From: a bacterium
GTDB lineage: Bacteria > Armatimonadota > Zipacnadia > Zipacnadales > UBA11051
DNA: 64,000 bases
Reading direction: 5' to 3'
Assembly (NCBI GenBank): GCA_030604405.1
Contig: JAUVVY010000001.1
Span: forward strand, 1 to 64,000
The notes beneath the pieces were generated by a model, which worked only from the letters and a program-made list of their open reading frames with translations, was not told the DNA's origin and ran no database searches. The number at the start of each line of letters is the position of its first letter. The stretch's first letter is position 1. This document shows, one piece after another, positions 30,938 through 43,986 of the stretch. A program made the position numbers and the translations under genes.

Positions 30938-33900
30938 ATGCGCATCGCCGTTCTCACGTTAATTGTGCTTCTTTTGTGCCTCATCCCCGACATCTCGTCA
31001 AGCTCCACGAAGACAGAGCGGACCTACTACACTGCAGAGCGTCTCGAAGCGATGCGGGCTAACCTGGAGAAATACGAGTGGGCGAAGAATAAGCGCGACA
31101 GCATCGTCAGCGAGGCCAACAAATGGGTGGACATCCCGGACGAGGAACTGCGCATGATGGTTCCTCCGCCGCAGCTTCCGCGTGCCGCGTACGTGAACGA
31201 GACCGGCTGCCCGGTGCATGGCCTGGAAATCCGCAAGCACGGCACCTACGCGTGGAAGGTCGCCTCCGAGCATCCCTTCAAGGTCCAATGCCCCGTCGGC
31301 GGTGAGTTCTATCCGGACAACGATTTCGACGCCTACTACCGTTCGTGCTGGGTTGACGGTGAATACAACCCCGACAAGGGTGACAGGTCGCTTCTCAAAG
31401 GCGAGATAATTGACGACGGCTGGGGGTGGGACAAGCCGGATGATGACAGCGAGCAGAAGTACTGGTTCGTCGCCTACTACACCCACTGGTACCTGGCAAA
31501 CAAGGTCGTGACGGGTGTGCTCAGGGATTGCGCGCAGGCGTATCTGCTGACTGGTGACGAACGCTACGCTCACAAGACGGCCCTGGTGCTATGGCAGCTT
31601 GCCCACTACTATCCGGACTACGCCTACGAGAAACAATCCCGCCGTGGCACCGAGTTCAATCCCCACTACTGGGGCAAGCTGAAATACCACACCTGGGAGT
31701 GCTACACCGTCACCTCGGCTGCAAAGGCCTATGACGCGGTATTTCCGTACCTCGAAAAGGACGTGGCACTGCAGGAATTGACGGGCCAGAACGCCGGCGA
31801 GATCGGAGAGTACATCGAAAGCCGCATGCTGCGGGATATGGCCCGTCTGATCTTCTCGCGCACCATCCAGGGCAACTATGGCATGCACCAGTCGGGACTG
31901 CTGCTGGTGGCGCTGGTGTGCGGGGACGAAGAAAACGAGCCGAAGCGCTCTGAAATGATTGACTGGGTACTCAACAACGACGACGTTGAGCGATATACCG
32001 ACCTCAGTCTCAATGATGCGCTCTACAATGTCATCTACCGGGATGGCGTGCCCTTCGAATCGCCAGGCTACAACTGGAGCTGGATCCGCAACCTGCTGGT
32101 GATTGCACAGATGCTGGAGGAGTGCGGTGTCGAGGTGTTGTCATGGCCGCGATTCCGGGGGCTATTCGACTGGCTCATTGACATGCGCATCGCCGGCAAT
32201 TTCACTCCCGCGCTTGGTGACAGTGGGCACATGTACCACCGACCGGTGGGCCGCAACCGTACGGTTTACGGACCGGCGTTTGCCAAATGGGGAGACCCCC
32301 GCTACGCCGTCATCTCGCTGGAGGGCGGATCCTACTACGACCTTTTCACCGAGACCGCGGATGAAGCGATGGAGAGGGCCGCGGCCGAGTATGACGCAGT
32401 CCTCGGCACAGAAAGCTTCCTCTTTCCCGGCTACGGCATGAGCATACTGCAGACCGGCAACGAGCAGAATCGCACCGCGCTGATGCTGTACCAGGGCGCA
32501 TACAGGTGGGCGCACGCTCATTTCGACGCCATGCACATTGACTTCTACTCCCGCGGTTTTGCCCTGATGCCGGACTTCGGCTACCCCGAGACGGCCAATA
32601 GCAATGACCCGCGCCGCTTTGGCTTCTTCTCTCACAGCCTTGCCCACAACCTGGTGATGATTGACGAGACGCGCAGCGCCCGCGCCGCAGGCCATGTCAC
32701 CGCCTTTGACCCCACGCCGTTCTGCCAAATCGTTGACGCGCATTGCGAAGAGCTCTATCCGCGCCTGGCAGGCCAGTACCGGCGCACTCTGGGGCTGGTT
32801 GATGTGACGGGATCTGACGCGTACCTGGTAGATATTGTGCGGGTCGCGGGCGGGCAGCAGCATGACTGGGTTGTCCACGGCCATGAGGGAACCTATGAAA
32901 GCAACCTCGCCCTGACCCCGCCGCGTGCCGAGGGCACACTGGCCGGGCCGGATGTCGAGTATGGCTATTTCTACGACAATGAGGAAATGGCCAAGGCGCC
33001 CTACGGCACCATCAGTTACATCTCATATACAGGCAGTGCCTTCATGTATCTGTTCAATGTCCAGGAGGGCGTGCTTGACGGCTGCGACACCTTCTCCTTC
33101 ATTCCCACCCGTCGCCCGCCGGGAACACCGACGGGCAAGATCGTCAACCGCGCGCACCTCATTGGCGATGACGAGCGCATCTTCGTCTGTGACGGCAAGC
33201 CGCAACAGAACGTGAAGGTGCATCCGGAGACTGTCAAATTCCTGCTGCGGAGGCGCGGCGACAAGCACAATCCCGCCGACCAGGAGCTTCAGAGCACCTT
33301 CATCACGGTGTTCGAGCCCTACGTGGATGAGCCCTTTCTCAACTTCGTGCAGCGACTTACCACACAGCCCCAGGACCCGACCATGGTCGCGCTGAAAATC
33401 CAAAAGGCCGACGGCGGGATTGACTACTTCCTCAGCGCCACCGACCCCGAGCAGGTCTATCGGGTAGAAGGCGGCATCGTCTTCGAGGGCGAGACCGGCG
33501 CGATAAGCACAGACGCTGAGGGCCGGGTAACTCACGGTCGGCTGACCAATGGCTCGCAACTGCAGATGAAGGAGTTGAATCTGGCCGCCCAGCCGGTGCA
33601 GCGAGTGAAGATAGCGGAGCTTAATTACGAGACCGGCACGGTGGTGCTCGCCAGGCCCGCTCTAACGGACGAGACGCTGGTCGGGCGCTGGGTTACGATA
33701 TCCAACGACCTCCATAGCACCATGTATCGTGTGGAAAAGCTGATTGACGAGAAGACCTTCTCTATCGGGGACCAGGATCCGCGCTGCGGGCGACTGCTGC
33801 CGTCTAGTTGGGACGACAACACCCATACATTGGCGACCTCCAACTACAGTGAAGCCGTGCGTCCCGGCATGTACATTGCTGACGAGGAAAATCGCATCCT

Positions 33901-34075
33901 CGGCCAGATTACCGCCGGCAGAGCCGACTCACTCGTTCTCGGCACCGGCCCGTCATTCGAACTCGACAATCTGCCTGACAAGGACCGCGACGGCAAGAGG
34001 CGCGTTTGGGCAATGGACTTCGCTGTCGGCGATGAGGTCAAGCTGTGCAACTCGCTGTCATACGAGGCGCCGTGA
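30938..34075 (+). CDS. Exported heparinase II/III-like protein
   Basis: Signal peptide MRIAVLTLIVLLLCLIPDISSSS; GCPVHGLEI...CPVGGEFYPDNDFDAYY; HAHFDAMHIDFYSRGFALMPDFGYP and SLAHNLVMIDE. Confidence 0.78.
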   Translation: MRIAVLTLIVLLLCLIPDISSSSTKTERTYYTAERLEAMRANLEKYEWAKNKRDSIVSEANKWVDIPDEELRMMVPPPQLPRAAYVNETGCPVHGLEIRKHGTYAWKVASEHPFKVQCPVGGEFYPDNDFDAYYRSCWVDGEYNPDKGDRSLLKGEIIDDGWGWDKPDDDSEQKYWFVAYYTHWYLANKVVTGVLRDCAQAYLLTGDERYAHKTALVLWQLAHYYPDYAYEKQSRRGTEFNPHYWGKLKYHTWECYTVTSAAKAYDAVFPYLEKDVALQELTGQNAGEIGEYIESRMLRDMARLIFSRTIQGNYGMHQSGLLLVALVCGDEENEPKRSEMIDWVLNNDDVERYTDLSLNDALYNVIYRDGVPFESPGYNWSWIRNLLVIAQMLEECGVEVLSWPRFRGLFDWLIDMRIAGNFTPALGDSGHMYHRPVGRNRTVYGPAFAKWGDPRYAVISLEGGSYYDLFTETADEAMERAAAEYDAVLGTESFLFPGYGMSILQTGNEQNRTALMLYQGAYRWAHAHFDAMHIDFYSRGFALMPDFGYPETANSNDPRRFGFFSHSLAHNLVMIDETRSARAAGHVTAFDPTPFCQIVDAHCEELYPRLAGQYRRTLGLVDVTGSDAYLVDIVRVAGGQQHDWVVHGHEGTYESNLALTPPRAEGTLAGPDVEYGYFYDNEEMAKAPYGTISYISYTGSAFMYLFNVQEGVLDGCDTFSFIPTRRPPGTPTGKIVNRAHLIGDDERIFVCDGKPQQNVKVHPETVKFLLRRRGDKHNPADQELQSTFITVFEPYVDEPFLNFVQRLTTQPQDPTMVALKIQKADGGIDYFLSATDPEQVYRVEGGIVFEGETGAISTDAEGRVTHGRLTNGSQLQMKELNLAAQPVQRVKIAELNYETGTVVLARPALTDETLVGRWVTISNDLHSTMYRVEKLIDEKTFSIGDQDPRCGRLLPSSWDDNTHTLATSNYSEAVRPGMYIADEENRILGQITAGRADSLVLGTGPSFELDNLPDKDRDGKRRVWAMDFAVGDEVKLCNSLSYEAP

Positions 34076-34362: not shown

Positions 34363-37300
34363 TTACTCGCGGATGACCTCGATGGTGTTGAGGATAGGGG
34401 CTTGGTCTCTCGGCGTGTTCTCACCCTTAGGCACAAGCTCGATATTGAGGTTATCCTCGACCTCAATGCCGTTGAACTCCTCTATCACGGCTTTGTTCTG
34501 GCCGCCTGCCGCAGCGACCACGTCGAAGTTCTTGGCCACGCCCTTGCCCTGTAGCTTGATGTCAAAGACCCGCTTGCCGCGCCGCGTGTTTTCGCTGTCG
34601 GCGAACCCGAGCCGCACGGTGTACCGAGCCGGGCCATCTTCCTCTTTCACAAGAGGGAGTGTGCAGGATGTCATACCGGCGCAGCCCGAGGCATAGAGCC
34701 ATGAGGTATCCGCATTGACGGCTCCCCAGTCCTCCTCCCCGTAATTGAAGTAGCCACATTCGGGCAGGATTTCGGTCTCCATTTTGAAGCTGAGCAGCAT
34801 CCGCCCACGCGGGCGAGGATAGGCAAGCCACAATTCTCCGTCCTTATCCTTTCTATCCCCCGGGCCTCCCACATTGATAGCGAGATGCTTGACCGGCGTC
34901 GTCTCACCGGCGGAGGAATAGACGCCCCACATCCTATTGGTAGCGCATGGCTCAAACACGACGGTGGCGGTGAGCGAGTGGAGACAGGCACAACCGGAAC
35001 TGGCCTCGGGTTCGATCACCAGCCCATTGGCGGGTATCATATTGATCCAGCAGCCGGGCCGCTGGCCGCCGAAATGCTGCGTTCCGTGGTCCGACAGCAG
35101 GTCGTAGTAGGCGGATGTCCAGGAGCGGAAGAACAGGGCGTTGGGAGACCCGGAGATACAGCCACAGTGGTGGCCCGGGCGTTCGAATTTCCACGGCACC
35201 GTCTCCCCTGTCACAGGGTTAGTACGCATCTGCTGTTCGCCCGTATGCAGGTCGAAGCGCCACGGCTCCGCATAGAATGTGTCACCGATGACCAGGGGCC
35301 GGATGCGGCAGCCGACGGCCTTCGACCACAGCAACGAGCCGTCTCTTGTAGAAAGGGCGGTGGCGCGGCGGCTGGCGTAGTCCCCGCCGAGGAATTGCTT
35401 CCAGTAGTGCCCGTTGATGTAGGAGCCGGCAAAGACCAGAACACCGTTGTTACAAATAGAGAACAGAAGTGTCCCGCCGCAGTCCGTCAGGTCCGCCGGC
35501 TGCTCCCAGGCAACCTCTCCCGTCGCGGCGTCAAGCGCCACGACCATTCGCACATCAGCATCAGTCGCTGCCTCAGCGGCTGAAGGCGCATCGCTCCCCG
35601 TGGCCTCCTCCACAAGCTCGGCCATTTGTTTCAGCCCAACCTGCCGCTGCTCTTCTGTCGCTCTGTCATCGGCGAAGAAGACGCGGCCATCGTCTATCGC
35701 AATCGTATTGTTCCTGATATTCTTGCCGTGGTGAACCCATTTCAGTTCCCCGGTTTCGATGTCCACGGCGAACACGGAATCACTGGTTTGGGATTTGGCC
35801 GAGGTGCTGCCGAAGAGCAGGTTGTCCACGACGGCGACATAGGCCCAGGTGCGCTCGGTTTCATCTTCGGACGCAGGCATCTCATACGTGGCTTGGGTCA
35901 GGCCGGTTGCGGCGTCCAGACGCAGGCACCCGGAGCCGGTGGCGACGAAGAGGCTGTCTTCATTGCAGGCCAGATTGCTGCACTCGCGCGCCATGCGGAC
36001 ACGGTAGGCGCCCTCGATCTCTCGCTCCCAATGCATAAACCCGTTGTAGGCGTCGAAGCACATGATGCGGTTGATGCCCTGCAGGAACACACGCCCGTTG
36101 ATTGAGAGGGGAGCTGTATTGCGATAGTGTCGGCTGGGCACTTTGCCGGGCCCCGGTTCGCCATACCACAGCACTCGCAAGGGTGCCTTGACCAGCGTGT
36201 CCTCGGAGGAGGCGGTATTGCCCGGGTCGCCGTACTGGTGGGTCCATTTGCCGGCGCCTTGCAGCGGCCCGCGCGCAAAGTTGAGCCAGGTGCCTCCAGA
36301 GTCTGTGGGCTCCAACTCCTGGCTGATGCCGGCCGAACTCACCCAGTTGTTCAATGCCTCTGCGCTCAAGGGCTTGACTATGTCCGCCCGGGTAGCTGGC
36401 TGGCCGATGCACAGCACGCCGCCGCACGGTTTGAGCATGCGCATCGCCTCGTCAGCAGGGGTGCTCAGCCGGCCCGATATCAAAGCCTCTTCTGAAACGA
36501 TCAGGTTGGCGAAGTAATTCGAGTAGGGTACCGCATCGAGCGCGGCCTGTTCAACAGTGATTCTGTTGCCATACATTCCGGCGGCATCGAGCCGCTCCCG
36601 TGCGATCTCGACCTTCTTTGCATCGGGTTCGATACCGTAGATCACCAGGTCGGTGCGTTTCGCCAGCTCATAGGCCAGGCGTCCGGTGCCACATCCCAGG
36701 ACCAGGCAGTAACCTTTCTCCACGCCGCTCGATCTTACGATTAGTTGAGCCGCCCGCTGGTAGTACAGCGTCAATTGGTCCCGGGGATACGGATCGGAGA
36801 CAGTCTCTGCCGCCGCTGACGTCGGCTTCGGTCCTTTTCCGAAACACTGAATAGTGCCCTTGTCGGTGCTGACTAAAAGCCGCCCATCGGCAACGGCGAG
36901 CCCCTTTGCTTTGCCGTCCGTCCTGGCTGTGCAGAGCTGCTCTCCCGTATTGCTCTCAATCGCCAGGACCTGATTGTCGCCGCCGGCCAACAGCACTTCG
37001 CCGGCGACGATCATTGAATCCAGCCCCTCGGCCTCAAGGCGCCATTTGGTACACGCCGCCATGGCCGCGTCCGCCGCCTTTTCCTGCTGGGTCAGGGCCG
37101 CGAGCTTTTCATCGAAGTTCTCTGTAGTTGCCTTTTGTCGCACTAGTGACCTGCGTTTGTTCGCCAGTTGCTTGCGGTGGGCATTGGCCTTGGGATAGGC
37201 GATGCGGTCAAGGGCCTGGATACCCGCATTTTCCAGCAGGTAAGAAATCTCCCTTGTGATGACAAGGCGGTGGCCGGGGAACCAGGCAAAGCCGATATTG

Positions 37301-38304
37301 CCTTTTTCCTGATCATAGCCAACCGTCTGTTTGCCGCCGCAGAAGAACTGCTCGCCGGCCAGCAGCGCGTACGTGCCGCCCACGACGCCATTGCTCCGCC
37401 AGCCGAAGCTGCGCTGGTAGTGAAAGCGGCCATCTTTCCGATCGAAGCGCGCGGGTAGTGCTCGTCCCGAGGGCACGAACAGATAATCCTCCGTCGCCAG
37501 CAGATAGCCCTGCGGCGTGAACCCGTGTTGACCTGCTGACAGGTCGCTCATAGTTGCGTTTTTCCAGATGGGCGCCCCGTCCCTGGCCCCCACGGCATAC
37601 ACATACACCCGCTCGCCCGGGAACATACCCGCTCCGAAGTAGGCCACGTCGTCGTCCACCACTACGCCGGTTCGGACCGGCCACAACGACATCATCTTCC
37701 CACTCCCCAGCACCCTTTCATCACTCGGCGCCGCCTGAAACTTCCAGACAAGCTCGCCGTCGGCAGCATTCAGGCAATAGACGTAGCCGTCATCGGCGCC
37801 CACGTATATGCGCCCCTTATAGACAGTTGGCGCCAGCCGTACCGGCCCGTCTGTGAAAAACGTCCAGCGAACCTCTCCGCTAGCCAGGTCAATACAGCAG
37901 ACCTTGTTGTCCTCGGTGGAGCCGAAATACACGGCACCGTCGCTCACAGCGATGTGGAAGGCGTCATCGAACTTCAGCCTCGGCCTTTCGAGGTTGACGT
38001 CTCCCATGCCTTCGACTGCGACGCTGTGGGGATCCGGCCACGCGGAATGTGGCGGGGCCGGCGAGGTCCAGGCCCAGTGCTCCGCCAGCGGCAAGTCCGG
38101 AGCGGCAGGGCAAACGCCACTGCGCGCGTTGTCGTGAAGGTAGGCGGGCCAGTCGCTGCTGTTGCTGCCCGGGCTGGTGGCCACGGCATACCCGACCCAA
38201 ATAAGGGCTATGCCGAGCAATAGCGCAAGCATCACAGCAGAACGGCGAAAAGACTGAAAACGGCTGCTTAACTCATGGGTACAAAGTCGCAGACGGGTGT
38301 TCAT
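34363..38304 (-). CDS. PQQ-like beta-propeller / SAM-methyltransferase-like domain / PQQ-like / malectin-like fusion protein with N-terminal signal-anchor
   Basis: Anchor AVMLALLLGIALIWVGYA; DWPAYLHDNARSG and VYCLNAADGELVWKF propeller motifs; VLGCGTGRLAYELAKRTDLVIYGIEPDAKKVEIAR methyltransferase motif I; C-terminal INVGGPGD...YTVRLGFAD...FDIKLQG malectin-like. Confidence 0.78.
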   Translation of the reverse strand: MNTRLRLCTHELSSRFQSFRRSAVMLALLLGIALIWVGYAVATSPGSNSSDWPAYLHDNARSGVCPAAPDLPLAEHWAWTSPAPPHSAWPDPHSVAVEGMGDVNLERPRLKFDDAFHIAVSDGAVYFGSTEDNKVCCIDLASGEVRWTFFTDGPVRLAPTVYKGRIYVGADDGYVYCLNAADGELVWKFQAAPSDERVLGSGKMMSLWPVRTGVVVDDDVAYFGAGMFPGERVYVYAVGARDGAPIWKNATMSDLSAGQHGFTPQGYLLATEDYLFVPSGRALPARFDRKDGRFHYQRSFGWRSNGVVGGTYALLAGEQFFCGGKQTVGYDQEKGNIGFAWFPGHRLVITREISYLLENAGIQALDRIAYPKANAHRKQLANKRRSLVRQKATTENFDEKLAALTQQEKAADAAMAACTKWRLEAEGLDSMIVAGEVLLAGGDNQVLAIESNTGEQLCTARTDGKAKGLAVADGRLLVSTDKGTIQCFGKGPKPTSAAAETVSDPYPRDQLTLYYQRAAQLIVRSSGVEKGYCLVLGCGTGRLAYELAKRTDLVIYGIEPDAKKVEIARERLDAAGMYGNRITVEQAALDAVPYSNYFANLIVSEEALISGRLSTPADEAMRMLKPCGGVLCIGQPATRADIVKPLSAEALNNWVSSAGISQELEPTDSGGTWLNFARGPLQGAGKWTHQYGDPGNTASSEDTLVKAPLRVLWYGEPGPGKVPSRHYRNTAPLSINGRVFLQGINRIMCFDAYNGFMHWEREIEGAYRVRMARECSNLACNEDSLFVATGSGCLRLDAATGLTQATYEMPASEDETERTWAYVAVVDNLLFGSTSAKSQTSDSVFAVDIETGELKWVHHGKNIRNNTIAIDDGRVFFADDRATEEQRQVGLKQMAELVEEATGSDAPSAAEAATDADVRMVVALDAATGEVAWEQPADLTDCGGTLLFSICNNGVLVFAGSYINGHYWKQFLGGDYASRRATALSTRDGSLLWSKAVGCRIRPLVIGDTFYAEPWRFDLHTGEQQMRTNPVTGETVPWKFERPGHHCGCISGSPNALFFRSWTSAYYDLLSDHGTQHFGGQRPGCWINMIPANGLVIEPEASSGCACLHSLTATVVFEPCATNRMWGVYSSAGETTPVKHLAINVGGPGDRKDKDGELWLAYPRPRGRMLLSFKMETEILPECGYFNYGEEDWGAVNADTSWLYASGCAGMTSCTLPLVKEEDGPARYTVRLGFADSENTRRGKRVFDIKLQGKGVAKNFDVVAAAGGQNKAVIEEFNGIEVEDNLNIELVPKGENTPRDQAPILNTIEVIRE

Positions 38305-38509: not shown

Positions 38510-39703
38510 ATGATAGCCGCTAGACGTCTCGTCTCACGGCGACACGTGCTCCTGGCAATCGCAGCAATGTGGTTGTTCTGGTTTGTGCCGGCAGCACTAG
38601 GCTGTCCGTACTGCATCCAGGAAGCCGGCTTCATCGTTCGCGAATCGAGCCCGTACAAACTCGTTATCTTCGTGCGCGATGAGACCCCGCTGAAGGACGA
38701 ATTGGCGCAATGGCTGGCGAGCGCCTCGGATGCCTGGCTGCGGGAGTCGAACGTCGAAGCCGAGGTAGTCAACCTCGGCCAGCAGCCGCGTCACGAAGCC
38801 CGGCGTCAGTTCGATGAGCTAAGCCCCGAACACCTGCCTGCCGCAATACTCATCTCGCCGCAACAGAAGGCCATGCTGCTACCAAGTCTGAGCGGGAGCG
38901 ATCTTTCTGAGCACGCGGTCGGTGAGGCAGTTTCGGAGGTGGTCGTATCGCCGGTGCGCGAGGAGATAATCGAGCATATCATCACCGATTGGTGCGTCGC
39001 GATCATCGCAGAAGGCGCTGACGCAGCCGAAAACCGCCGGCTCAAGACCGAGGTTGCCGCCGCTGCAGAAGCTCTTGTCGGTTTCAGAACCGAGATGGGC
39101 TATAAGATAGAGAAGCCGCCGCATATCATCACCATCTCGCCCGATGACCCGGATGAGGAGGTCCTGATATGGAGCCTCGGCCTCAAGGCAAGCGCCACGG
39201 GCAAAGCACAGGTCGCCGTGCTTTTTGGCATGATTCGCCGAGTCGGGTCGGTATTGCCGGCTGAAGAGGTCACGGAGATGACCATGCTGGACATCTTCCG
39301 GCTGCTGGGGCGCAGTTGTGCCTGCACCAGTGATCCCAGTTGGTTGCTGGGGCCTGCCGCGCCAGTCATTTGGGGTCAGGACCTCGACCTTCGCGTTCGC
39401 GACCAGTTCGGCTTCGATCCCAACAGCCCGGCGGTGCTCAATACGCTGGCGGGGGTATGGATCAGCCTCGGCGAGGCAGACGCCGAAGCAGCAGAGCGGG
39501 CCCTTCCTCCTGCGGAGACTGGTTATATGGAGTTTCCCGTGGAGCCGCAGCAGACCAAAGGCGAAGGGGCGGACTTGAGCGGCGCAGAGCCGACAGCAGC
39601 ACAGCGCGGGCGTCGAGTGCTTTTCATAGTGGCCGCAGCCCTTGCCTGCATGGCCATCATCGGCACTGTAATCATCCTATTGCGGCAACGCAGGAGCACC
39701 TGA
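38510..39703 (+). CDS. Exported/membrane-anchored protein with N-terminal CPYC motif and C-terminal TM helix, function unknown
   Basis: Signal peptide then LGCPYCIQEAG; C-terminal VLFIVAAALACMAIIGTVIILLRQRRST. Confidence 0.7.
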   Translation: MIAARRLVSRRHVLLAIAAMWLFWFVPAALGCPYCIQEAGFIVRESSPYKLVIFVRDETPLKDELAQWLASASDAWLRESNVEAEVVNLGQQPRHEARRQFDELSPEHLPAAILISPQQKAMLLPSLSGSDLSEHAVGEAVSEVVVSPVREEIIEHIITDWCVAIIAEGADAAENRRLKTEVAAAAEALVGFRTEMGYKIEKPPHIITISPDDPDEEVLIWSLGLKASATGKAQVAVLFGMIRRVGSVLPAEEVTEMTMLDIFRLLGRSCACTSDPSWLLGPAAPVIWGQDLDLRVRDQFGFDPNSPAVLNTLAGVWISLGEADAEAAERALPPAETGYMEFPVEPQQTKGEGADLSGAEPTAAQRGRRVLFIVAAALACMAIIGTVIILLRQRRST

Positions 39704-39704
39704 A

Positions 39705-40844
39705 ATGTGGTCATTGCGCCTGCTCCTCAGAGAGATCGGTCACCGCTTCCCCGGCTTCTTCCTCGGCTTGCTGGCCGTGGTCGCAGCAGTCGCCCTGTAT
39801 GTGGGGCTGGAAACAATGGGCCGGGCCTCCTACAGGGAAACGAAACGCCTGATGCGCAACCTGGGTTTCAACCTGCTGATCGTGCCCGAGGGGACAGACA
39901 TGGCGGATTTCTGGACGGCGGATTTTGCCAGCGGTGACATGCCCGAACAATACGTGCGCCGCCTGGCCGAAACCCCCGGTATGCTTGCCGATCACTATGT
40001 AGCCACGTTGCAAAAGAAGGTCTTGTGGGAAGGCCGAGAGGTCCTGCTGACCGGGATATTGCCGGAGCGCTCCGCCATAGATGCCCGCAAGAAGGCGCCG
40101 ATGGGATATAGCATCGCCCGTGGGGAGTGCTATGTGGGATACGCGATTGCCAAGTCGCCGGGTATCGAGCCTGGGAAGACAATCAACGTGCTGGGCAAGG
40201 ACCTCACCGTTGCGCGACGCCTGCTCGAAGACGGCTCGAAGCAAGACATCCGCATCTACGCCCACCTTCACGACGTTCAGGACATCCTCGACATGAAAGG
40301 CCGCATCAACGCCATTGAGGCCCTCCACTGTTTATGCGCGGGGGCGTCATTGCCGGACCTCAAGCAACAGATCGCGAAGGTCTTGCCCGGCACGCACGTG
40401 ACAGAGCTGCGCGATATCGCCGCTGCCCGTTCGGAGACGCGGAAAATGGTCGAGCAACACGTCGAGTTGATCGTGGCGGTGGTCCTGGTGGTGTGTGCCG
40501 CGTGGATAGCCTTCCTGGCGCTGCTCAACGTCCGTGAGAGACGCCAGGAGATCGGCATCCTGCGCGCTTTGGGATTCGGTTCGGGGCATATCGCGGCTCT
40601 GTTCCTGGGGAGGGCGATTCTGATGGGCCTGCTCGGCGCGCTGGCAGGATTCTTTGTGGGCACCGCCGTGGCCATGCACTACGGGCCGGACATGTTCAAG
40701 CTCACTTTCAGTGCAGTACGGCCCCCGTATGACATTTTCATTCCGACGCTGCTGGTCGCACCTCTGATCGCGGCCTTAGCCGCCATGCTGCCGGCCGTCA
40801 TCGCTATCAGCCAGGACCCGGCCGTGGTACTGAGGGAGGAATGA
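39705..40844 (+). CDS. ABC transporter permease, FtsX/MacB-like
   Basis: N-terminal TM, large extracytoplasmic loop, C-terminal TMs with LLNVRERRQEIGILRALGFGSGHIAALFLGRAILMGLLGALAG. Confidence 0.88.
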   Translation: MWSLRLLLREIGHRFPGFFLGLLAVVAAVALYVGLETMGRASYRETKRLMRNLGFNLLIVPEGTDMADFWTADFASGDMPEQYVRRLAETPGMLADHYVATLQKKVLWEGREVLLTGILPERSAIDARKKAPMGYSIARGECYVGYAIAKSPGIEPGKTINVLGKDLTVARRLLEDGSKQDIRIYAHLHDVQDILDMKGRINAIEALHCLCAGASLPDLKQQIAKVLPGTHVTELRDIAAARSETRKMVEQHVELIVAVVLVVCAAWIAFLALLNVRERRQEIGILRALGFGSGHIAALFLGRAILMGLLGALAGFFVGTAVAMHYGPDMFKLTFSAVRPPYDIFIPTLLVAPLIAALAAMLPAVIAISQDPAVVLREE

Positions 40845-41515
40845 CGGTGATTCACCTGCACAACCTCACCAAGCGATACCGCGGCCGCAGAGGCGACATT
40901 ATCGCCCTGGGCGATGTCAACTTATGCGTCCCCGAGGGCGAGTTCCTGACTATCAGAGGCCCCAGCGGGAGCGGGAAATCCACATTACTGCTCACCATCG
41001 CCGGGATGATACATCCGACGGACGGGAAGACCGTAGTGAATAGCACAGACATCTATGCCGTCTCGGGCCGACAGCGTGCGCGCTTCCGCGCCGAGAACAT
41101 CGGCTTCGTATTTCAGATGTTTCATCTGGTGCCCTATCTCAGCGTGCTTGACAATGTTGCTCTTCCTACTGTGCTGCTTCCCGGCCGCATCCGCAGCCAC
41201 GAGGCGCGCGAACTGTTGGCGAGCTTCGGCATGTCCGAGCGTCTGACCCACAAGCCGGCCGAGCTCAGCACCGGCGAAAGGCAGCGCACCGCCGTAGCAA
41301 GAGCTCTCGTCAACCATCCCCGGCTGCTCCTGGCGGACGAGCCTACAGGCAATCTTGACCCGGACAACTCGGCGCAGATTTTCGAGTATCTGGCCGATTT
41401 TCACCACCAGGGCGGCACCGTTGTAGTGGTCACGCACGATCCGCTGGTTGAGAGGTACGCTCAGCGCACGGTGTCGCTTGCGGCGGGCCGGCTGATCTCA
41501 AAGGAGGCGGGATGA
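40841..41515 (+). CDS. ABC transporter ATP-binding protein, LolD/MacB-like
   Basis: Walker A GPSGSGKST, signature LSTGERQRTAVARAL, Walker B LLLADEPTGNLD. Confidence 0.96.
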   Translation: MTVIHLHNLTKRYRGRRGDIIALGDVNLCVPEGEFLTIRGPSGSGKSTLLLTIAGMIHPTDGKTVVNSTDIYAVSGRQRARFRAENIGFVFQMFHLVPYLSVLDNVALPTVLLPGRIRSHEARELLASFGMSERLTHKPAELSTGERQRTAVARALVNHPRLLLADEPTGNLDPDNSAQIFEYLADFHHQGGTVVVVTHDPLVERYAQRTVSLAAGRLISKEAG

Positions 41516-42525
41516 TGACCTCATACGAAATTGTGCGTCGCGCCATTGAGTTTGAGACCCCGGAGCGCCTGCCGATTCGTTTCGCCGCGCTGGGCGTGGA
41601 TGATACTTATGGCGTGCCTCTCCGCAATGCCGCGGGCTGGGAGCCCAGCCGGCCCGATGAAGACGAGTGGGGCTGCATCTGGCACAAGCCCGACCCGGAA
41701 ACCGGCATCGCCAACATGGGCCAACCCAGGGGCCATCCGCTCGACAGTCTCGACCACATGGACGAGATTAACTGGCCCGACCCACACGATCCGGCCCGCT
41801 ACGCCGATATCGAGCAGGCGCTTGCCGAGGCCGACGACAAGTACGTCCTGGTCGGATGCGGTTACACTCTCTTCGAACGCATGCACTACCTCTACGGGAT
41901 GGACAAGCTCTTCATCGCGATGTACGAGCAGCCCGAGGAGGTCCACGAACTGGCCGAAAGGGTATTGGCCTTCCCTGTCGGTGTGGCCCAGGAGATCGGA
42001 AGGCGCTTCAAAGGCCGCGTCCACGGCTTCACCATGACCGACGACTGGGGCACCCAGGAGAACCACTTCATCGCCATACCGATGTGGCGCGAGTTTTTCA
42101 AGAGCCGCTACGCTCGCCTCTTTGACGCGATTCACCAGGCCGGGATGCACGCCTGGATGCACTCCTGCGGCCACATCAACGAGGTGATCCAGGAGTGGAT
42201 TGACTGCGACCTGGACGTGGTGAATCTCCAGCAGCCCACCAACCTGGGCATCGAGGAGATCGGACGGCGTTATCGGAGCCGCATCTGCTTTGAATCGCTC
42301 TGCGACATCCAGATGACCCTGCCGTGGCGGCCGGCCGAAGAAATCTGCGCCGAAGCCAGCCTGCTCCTGCAGCAGTGGGCCACGCCCGAAGGCGGCTTCA
42401 TCCTCAGCGACTACGGCGACGGCCGGGCCATCGGCGTTTCCGACGACAAGAAGCGCGTCATGCTCCAGGCTTTCATTGACCTGGCCGCACCGGGCCTGCA
42501 GATACCGGAAGCCACTGAAGCCTGA
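41512..42525 (+). CDS. Uroporphyrinogen decarboxylase (URO-D) family protein
   Basis: YEIVRRAIEFETPERLPI; GFTMTDDWGTQENHFI; HSCGHINEVIQEWIDCDLDVVNLQQPTN. Confidence 0.85.
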   Translation: MMTSYEIVRRAIEFETPERLPIRFAALGVDDTYGVPLRNAAGWEPSRPDEDEWGCIWHKPDPETGIANMGQPRGHPLDSLDHMDEINWPDPHDPARYADIEQALAEADDKYVLVGCGYTLFERMHYLYGMDKLFIAMYEQPEEVHELAERVLAFPVGVAQEIGRRFKGRVHGFTMTDDWGTQENHFIAIPMWREFFKSRYARLFDAIHQAGMHAWMHSCGHINEVIQEWIDCDLDVVNLQQPTNLGIEEIGRRYRSRICFESLCDIQMTLPWRPAEEICAEASLLLQQWATPEGGFILSDYGDGRAIGVSDDKKRVMLQAFIDLAAPGLQIPEATEA

Positions 42526-42546: not shown

Positions 42547-43986
42547 ATGGCTGAGATAGCACTGGTCAACTCGAATGTGACCAAGCCTCCGATTTCGCCG
42601 CTGGGACTGGAGTACATCGCCGAGGCCTGCCGCGAGCAGGAGATTGAGGTCGAAGTCGTGGACCTCTGTTTCGAGACCGATCCAGCGGCTGCATTGGAGC
42701 ACCACCTGGTGCAGGCAGATCCTGAGCTTGTCGCCATCACCTTCCGGAATACCGACAACTGCATGCTGCTGAGTTCACATTCATTCGTGCCGGAGCTAAC
42801 GGAGTTCGTCGCCACAGCTCGATCCGCCACTGAGGCGCCGATTGTAGTGGGCGGCGCCGGCTTCTCGGTCGCTCCGGCAGCGATTATGAGGGCGCTCGGC
42901 GTGGAATACGGGGTGCTGGGTGACGGCGAGCAGGCGGTCCCGCTACTGCTCCGTGCGCTGCGGGGCGAGGTAGATCTGCAGGATGTGCCCGGGCTGCTGT
43001 GGCGCGAGGCTGACGGCATCCGCAGCAACTGTCCCGAGTGGCCGGAGCTACTGAGCCAGTCAGCTCTGCGGAGAGATACAATAGACAATGCGTTGTATCT
43101 CGAACGCGGCGGCCAACTCGGCATCGAGACCAAGCGCGGATGTGACCGCGATTGCATCTACTGCGCAGACCCACTGAGCAAGGGCCGACGAATCCGACCG
43201 CGCTCACCCGCAGCCGTTGCGGACGAGGTCGAGAACTTACTCCGCCAGGGCATTGAGGTTTATCACCTCTGCGACAGCGAATTCAACGTGCCTCAGGAGC
43301 ACGCTGCTGCAGTCTGCGATGAGCTGATCCGGCGCGGCCTCGGCGCGAGGATTCAGTGGTACGGCTACCTCACGCCGCGCCCATTCTCAGCCGAACTTGC
43401 GGACCTGATGCAGCACGCCGGTTGTGCGGGTATAAACTTCGGAGCCGACAGCGGGGATGATGAAATGCTGGCACGTCTCGGGCGCGACTTCTCCTGCAAC
43501 GAGAGCCTGGAAGCCGTGCGCTGGTGCCGTGAGCGCGGCATCGCGGCGATGCTCGATTTGCTCATCGGCGCACCTGGCGAGACGCGAGAGACTGCACGCC
43601 AGACCATCGAGTTCGCAAAGGCTGCTGAGCCGTCCTGTGCCGGCATCTCTCTCGGTGTGCGCATCTACCCGGGCACGAAGCTCGCACATATCATCGCGGC
43701 CCAGGGGCCGATGGAGGAGAATCCGGCAATCTACGGACACGCCGAAGACAACGCGGATATGCTGGCCCCGGTATTCTATCTCTCCCCGGACCTGGGCACT
43801 CCGCAGGAGGCGGCGGGCTTGCTGTCGGAAGTCATCGCCGGTGACAGACGCTTCTTTTTTGGTGGCAGCGGCGACGACCGCGACTATGACTACGATGACA
43901 ACCAGGCACTGGTGGATGCGATCGCCGCCGGCGCACGCGGAGCGTACTGGGACATTCTCCGGCGCCTCCGAGCCAGCACGCTCTAA
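42547..43986 (+). CDS. B12-binding domain radical SAM protein
   Basis: N-terminal cobalamin-binding-like ISPLGLEYIAEACREQEIEVEVVDL; TKRGCDRDCIYCADPLSKG CxxxCxxC. Confidence 0.92.
   Translation: MAEIALVNSNVTKPPISPLGLEYIAEACREQEIEVEVVDLCFETDPAAALEHHLVQADPELVAITFRNTDNCMLLSSHSFVPELTEFVATARSATEAPIVVGGAGFSVAPAAIMRALGVEYGVLGDGEQAVPLLLRALRGEVDLQDVPGLLWREADGIRSNCPEWPELLSQSALRRDTIDNALYLERGGQLGIETKRGCDRDCIYCADPLSKGRRIRPRSPAAVADEVENLLRQGIEVYHLCDSEFNVPQEHAAAVCDELIRRGLGARIQWYGYLTPRPFSAELADLMQHAGCAGINFGADSGDDEMLARLGRDFSCNESLEAVRWCRERGIAAMLDLLIGAPGETRETARQTIEFAKAAEPSCAGISLGVRIYPGTKLAHIIAAQGPMEENPAIYGHAEDNADMLAPVFYLSPDLGTPQEAAGLLSEVIAGDRRFFFGGSGDDRDYDYDDNQALVDAIAAGARGAYWDILRRLRASTL

Follow-up and report, generated by a model that had tools for sequence, protein, structure and literature searches.

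The components of the locus described here resemble three known systems. BamB of E. coli (3p1l), built of PQQ repeats (PF13360), is a periplasmic eight-bladed propeller. Class I methyltransferases such as MMP1179 (3dlc) and RebM (3bus) use SAM, the cytoplasmic methyl donor, while members of the Lol, MacB, and FtsEX superfamily transmit ATP-driven motion to periplasmic proteins. We analyzed a window of 64,000 nucleotides (positions 1 to 64,000 of contig JAUVVY010000001.1) from a bacterium of the Armatimonadota. Its minus strand encodes at 34363..38304, in a single uninterrupted frame, a 1313-residue protein predicted to be exported (here PMM), which consists of a propeller, a methyltransferase-like domain, a second propeller, and a malectin domain, an order kept across phyla. 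An initial annotation had proposed just such an exported propeller/methyltransferase/malectin protein, and the Pfam matches, the AlphaFold models, and the recurrence of the architecture confirm that it is real.

Our literature search, which covered papers outside subscription journals, found none that describes this architecture or gene set. The nearest report is of a planctomycete proteome with 28 “BamB” paralogues of 43 to 193 kDa in one organism (PMC8567305), among which PMM-type proteins may be present. Rather than a paradoxical extracellular enzyme, PMM appears to be a repurposed component of a hitherto undescribed system of the cell envelope, because the residues for SAM use are mostly lost from its family and a dedicated inner-membrane ABC machine travels together with it.

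PMM contains two BamB-like propellers joined by a methyltransferase-like domain

Five stretches of PMM match PQQ_2 (E 1.9e-35), residues 534 to 628 match Methyltransf_25 (E 3.7e-10; 40.8 against a cut-off of 27), and residues 1142 to 1285 (34450..34881, minus strand) match Malectin (PF11721, E 2.3e-12), with the PQQ_2 and Malectin matches likewise above the curated Pfam cut-offs. AlphaFold modeled a compact core of 1093 residues with a pLDDT of 90.7 and a pTM of 0.91, so that the domain arrangement is predicted with confidence. The strand list of the model contains two propellers of ~32 strands each, which we read as about 8 blades per propeller, with the methyltransferase-like domain between them. 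The first propeller spans residues 48 to 495 (36820..38163, minus strand) and includes a helical hairpin at residues 369 to 416 (37057..37200, minus strand) according to the AlphaFold secondary structure; the second spans residues 700 to 1130 (34915..36207, minus strand). The methyltransferase had been described as lying between the halves of one propeller: a position between propeller modules is borne out, but the modules are two ~32-strand propellers and not halves.

In the PDB, the core matches BamB structures best, and by fold match and strand number the PMM propellers agree with the periplasmic eight-bladed type. Unlike BamB, PMM has two propellers as well as methyltransferase-like and malectin domains, and the BamB equivalog model TIGR03300 gives 66.6 bits versus a cut-off of 285.2. 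The family models of PQQ-dependent dehydrogenases score far below their cut-offs, with matches at the level of repeats only.

The methyltransferase-like domain (residues 498 to 692; 36229..36813, minus strand) was modeled from 70 alignment rows with a pLDDT of 92.6 and shows the seven-strand Rossmann-like fold of class I methyltransferases. Among PDB structures, it is closest to 3dlc, RebM, and SpnF, with a Foldseek probability of 1.00 against 3dlc, 3bus, and 3dh0, and it resembles these enzymes in sequence as well (profile E of 6.5e-16 against 3dlc). The objection that the segment might lack a SAM-binding fold is thereby answered.

The architecture recurs in independent genomes and several phyla

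The same architecture was found in 30 of the 291 genomes of the phylum. Several families contain full-length relatives with 46 to 63% identity; for paralogues, the figure is 30 to 40%. A scan of bacterial genomes returned at least 577 confirmed related stretches, and relatives of PMM occupy hundreds of loci in other phyla. The best 80 loci among these at least 577 stretches come from Armatimonadota (including Zipacnadia), Planctomycetota, Verrucomicrobiota, Lentisphaerota, Kiritimatiellota, and Omnitrophota, as well as from one Hydrogenedentes bin and two Bacteroidota bins, the taxon names being those of the records, many of which are metagenome bins. Recurrence in 30 phylum genomes and at hundreds of loci elsewhere is more than chance would give. 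It also rules out that two genes were merged by assembly, which had been raised as a possible refutation: given one open frame and a domain order kept by about 100 aligned proteins from independent genomes of several phyla, we regard an artefact as practically out of the question.

Within the phylum, the domain subfamily has 74 matches, none of which is a small stand-alone gene; the sole short frame among them (genome G276) is a fragment at a contig end. In one genome of the same class as that of the window (G253), the domain has expanded locally to 11 copies, which lie in large ORFs. Spread of PMM by viruses or plasmids was also considered and rejected, since viral contigs yielded no match and plasmids yielded short PQQ-repeat matches only.

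PMM carries a predicted signal peptide conserved in its family

The sole hydrophobic segment of the window PMM is N-terminal (residues 19 to 46) and follows the pattern of a signal peptide (residues 1 to 43; 38176..38304, minus strand; h-region AVMLALLLGIALIWVGYAVA), with an inferred cleavage site between AVA and TS. An N-terminus is available for 97 relatives; in 94 of them, a hydrophobic core of 12 residues lies at most 45 residues from the mature DWP motif, and 93 combine this core with a small-x-small (A-x-A-like) site immediately preceding the DWP start of the mature protein (W52). Some relatives (L090 and L104) have lipobox-like N-termini. Many homologues extend by about 270 or 388 C-terminal residues that are absent in the window PMM; one such tail (L022) contains the carbohydrate-binding module CBM96, and another (L031) weakly matches the 5'-nucleotidase C-terminal family, with a score slightly under the cut-off. 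From several independent signs, namely, the signal peptides, the lipobox-like ends, and the CBM96 tail, we infer that PMM is exported.

The initial annotation had called the N-terminus a signal-anchor and offered an inverted topology, with the domains in the cytoplasm, as one way out of the SAM paradox. The N-terminus is indeed hydrophobic, and the long h-region of the window PMM would suit an anchor, but a cleavable signal peptide is the more likely reading. Given the cleavable-type signal peptides throughout the family, the lipobox-like ends, the extracytoplasmic modules malectin and CBM96, and the BamB-like propellers, we rejected the inverted topology as very improbable.

A partner protein and an ABC permease and ATPase are co-inherited with PMM

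Divergent from the PMM gene lie three plus-strand genes, including an ABC gene set that the initial annotation had overlooked. The first (38510..39703) encodes a conserved partner with a signal peptide, a Cys at the predicted mature N-terminus, an invariant CxC, and, in the window copy, a C-terminal TM segment; it belongs to no Pfam family, and sequence searches assigned it to no known fold or family. It is followed by an FtsX/LolC/MacB-type ABC permease (39705..40844) with 1+3 TM segments and a large periplasmic domain and by a LolD/FtsE-like ABC ATPase (40841..41515) with intact Walker A, signature, and DEP motifs. The FtsX-domain permease and the LolD-like ATPase resemble LolCDE, MacB, and FtsEX, yet they differ from these systems in being partnered by a Cys/CxC protein and PMM. 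The LolD equivalog model gives 204.8 bits with the ATPase versus a cut-off of 307.75, the LolCE model gives 43.6 bits with the permease versus 362.45, and both proteins are also below the curated FtsX/FtsE cut-offs.

The partner is present in 26 of the 291 phylum genomes and the permease in 23, and all of these (26/26 and 23/23) are among the 30 PMM genomes (P = 3e-33, a value that overstates independence, as the genomes are related). The four PMM genomes without the partner are 55 to 86% complete. The partner gene, which is single copy in the genome of the window, stands beside the PMM gene in 15 of the 26 loci that have flanks of at least 5.5 kb in both directions, either divergently or on the same strand, and the ABC genes do not adjoin PMM at every locus. 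This co-inheritance and linkage of the partner and ABC genes is the strongest functional clue to PMM. PMM, the partner, the permease, and the ATPase make up a putative, previously undescribed four-gene envelope system.

The second propeller contains four near-invariant cysteines, C1047, C1085, and the CxC pair C1105/C1107 (34984..34992, minus strand). Together with the CxC of the partner, they suggest metal or thiol chemistry, which we offer as a lead only.

Most of the family has lost the residues for SAM use

In an alignment of 104 family proteins, the motif-I acid (position 535) is kept in 1 and lost in 103, and the motif-IV Asp (position 600) is kept in 9 and lost in 95. The 17 cytoplasmic methyltransferases found in the genome of the window with the same Pfam model keep these residues in 15 and 16 cases, respectively; their motifs were inspected visually in the translated matches, and P values for the loss are indicative only, as the family members are related. 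The PMM domain thus differs from class I enzymes in its predicted export and in the loss of both residues in nearly all members. In the window PMM, motif I is degenerate (LVLGCGTGRL, residues 534 to 543; 36676..36705, minus strand), with V535 at the acid position, and the motif-IV region (YFANLIVS, residues 597 to 604; 36493..36516, minus strand) has N600 instead of Asp. What it does keep is GCGTG, that is, GxGxG, as well as the post-I acid for the ribose, E559, at the end of beta 2. An acid is found at the latter position in 94/104 proteins, and D561 is kept in 90/104. The second glycine of GxGxG (G539) is kept in 41 of 103 relatives, and a tree computed from the alignment minus the domain columns requires at least 14 changes of the GxGxG state. 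By conservation, G539 ranks 69th and the motif-III acid site ranks 87th of 125, whereas E546, R569, R581, and Y597 rank high. The focus of conservation has shifted away from the SAM loop and toward residues of this kind.

The domain is therefore most likely a pseudo-enzyme, noncatalytic and repurposed, in most of the family, including the window PMM. This reading, for which the initial annotation had allowed under “pseudo-enzyme or ligand sensor,” is well supported by the loss of SAM-motif residues, from which the loss of activity is deduced. It is less certain for the window PMM than for most of the family, because GCGTG and E559 are kept, and with these two features some binding of SAM or a nucleoside is conceivable.

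The initial annotation had also considered a working extracytoplasmic methyltransferase, which would need SAM to be delivered across the membrane. In its favor are the GxGxG and post-I acid of the window PMM and one relative (L105:473-3976, plus strand), which alone among the 104 combines all canonical SAM motifs (LDLGCGDG ... ADLIVS) with a signal peptide. This exported relative is the best candidate for an active enzyme and makes an active minority within the family conceivable. However, the two acidic residues that cytoplasmic controls keep almost universally are gone from nearly all members, we are not aware of any SAM source beyond the bacterial cytoplasm, and Lol/MacB-type permeases are, to our knowledge, not suppliers of small metabolites to the periplasm. 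Overall, we consider a working enzyme improbable. There is likewise only a slim chance that the motif-keeping members (the window PMM in part, L105 fully) methylate an envelope glycan or protein with SAM or methyl groups provided via the linked membrane system.

A ligand sensor is possible, if doubtful. The Rossmann pocket would bind a ligand other than SAM (a sugar, a nucleoside, or another diol held by the post-I acid), and the propellers would signal its presence to the partner and the ABC machine. Consistently with such a role, the acid at 559 and D561 persist where methionine-side and motif-IV residues have been lost, and glycan-binding modules (malectin and CBM96) are attached. On the other hand, the pocket loop does not belong to the best-conserved parts, and the retained acid may be structural.

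A proposed role for PMM in the cell envelope

As a whole, the observations are best explained by PMM being a repurposed scaffold of the co-inherited ABC envelope system, a reading that we regard as reasonably probable. PMM would be secreted via Sec and would be a large scaffold or effector located in the periplasm or at the cell surface. Its methyltransferase fold, which would have lost SAM-dependent activity in most of the family, would join the two BamB-like propellers as a rigid bridge and would probably also bind ligands or proteins; glycans would be bound by malectin (and, in relatives, by CBM96). The protein would work with the products of the three co-inherited genes, the Cys-rich periplasmic partner, the FtsX/LolC-like permease, and the LolD-like ATPase. 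By analogy with Lol, MacB, and FtsEX, to whose superfamily the permease and the ATPase belong, the energy of ATP hydrolysis would be passed via the permease to the partner and the PMM scaffold and spent on work in the envelope, for instance on the assembly, loading, or release of one of its components. In mechanism, this analogy is a loose one, because the two proteins are below the curated LolCE, LolD, and FtsX/FtsE cut-offs.

If the proposal is right, one envelope system would be common to Planctomycetota, Verrucomicrobiota, Armatimonadota, and other poorly studied phyla, a system hitherto split among the labels “PQQ-repeat/BamB protein,” “methyltransferase,” “FtsX permease,” and “hypothetical.” Its four genes would form a unit open to testing, and PMM would clearly exemplify how the fold of a SAM methyltransferase can leave the cytoplasm and lose its cofactor residues. 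It would also caution against assigning methyltransferase function from these common annotations.

Other genes near PMM loci

In the window, the convergent neighbor of PMM (30938..34075, plus strand) encodes a large heparinase II/III-like protein (PF07940), possibly a polysaccharide lyase. Downstream of the ABC genes are a URO-D-like gene (41512..42525, plus strand) and a gene for a B12-binding radical SAM protein (42547..43986, plus strand), both of which are outside the conserved set as far as tested. Four planctomycete copies of PMM (L069, L073, L078, and L088) are near ModA-like solute-binding proteins (SBP_bac_11), and the last three are also near a ThiF/MoeB-like gene, a possible link to metal or cofactor handling. 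The ModA-like and ThiF genes were left out of the model, as they stand beside PMM in only 6 and 3 loci, respectively.

A second exported family, in which the same modules are reordered, was found beside the main gene at three loci (L095:2554-6471, minus strand; L082:3-2234, minus strand; and L051:2-3061, plus strand, cut at its 5' end). Here the signal peptide is followed by the methyltransferase-like domain (IVVHLGSGDG, with His at the acid site) and then by the propellers, and the L095 member also contains LamG.
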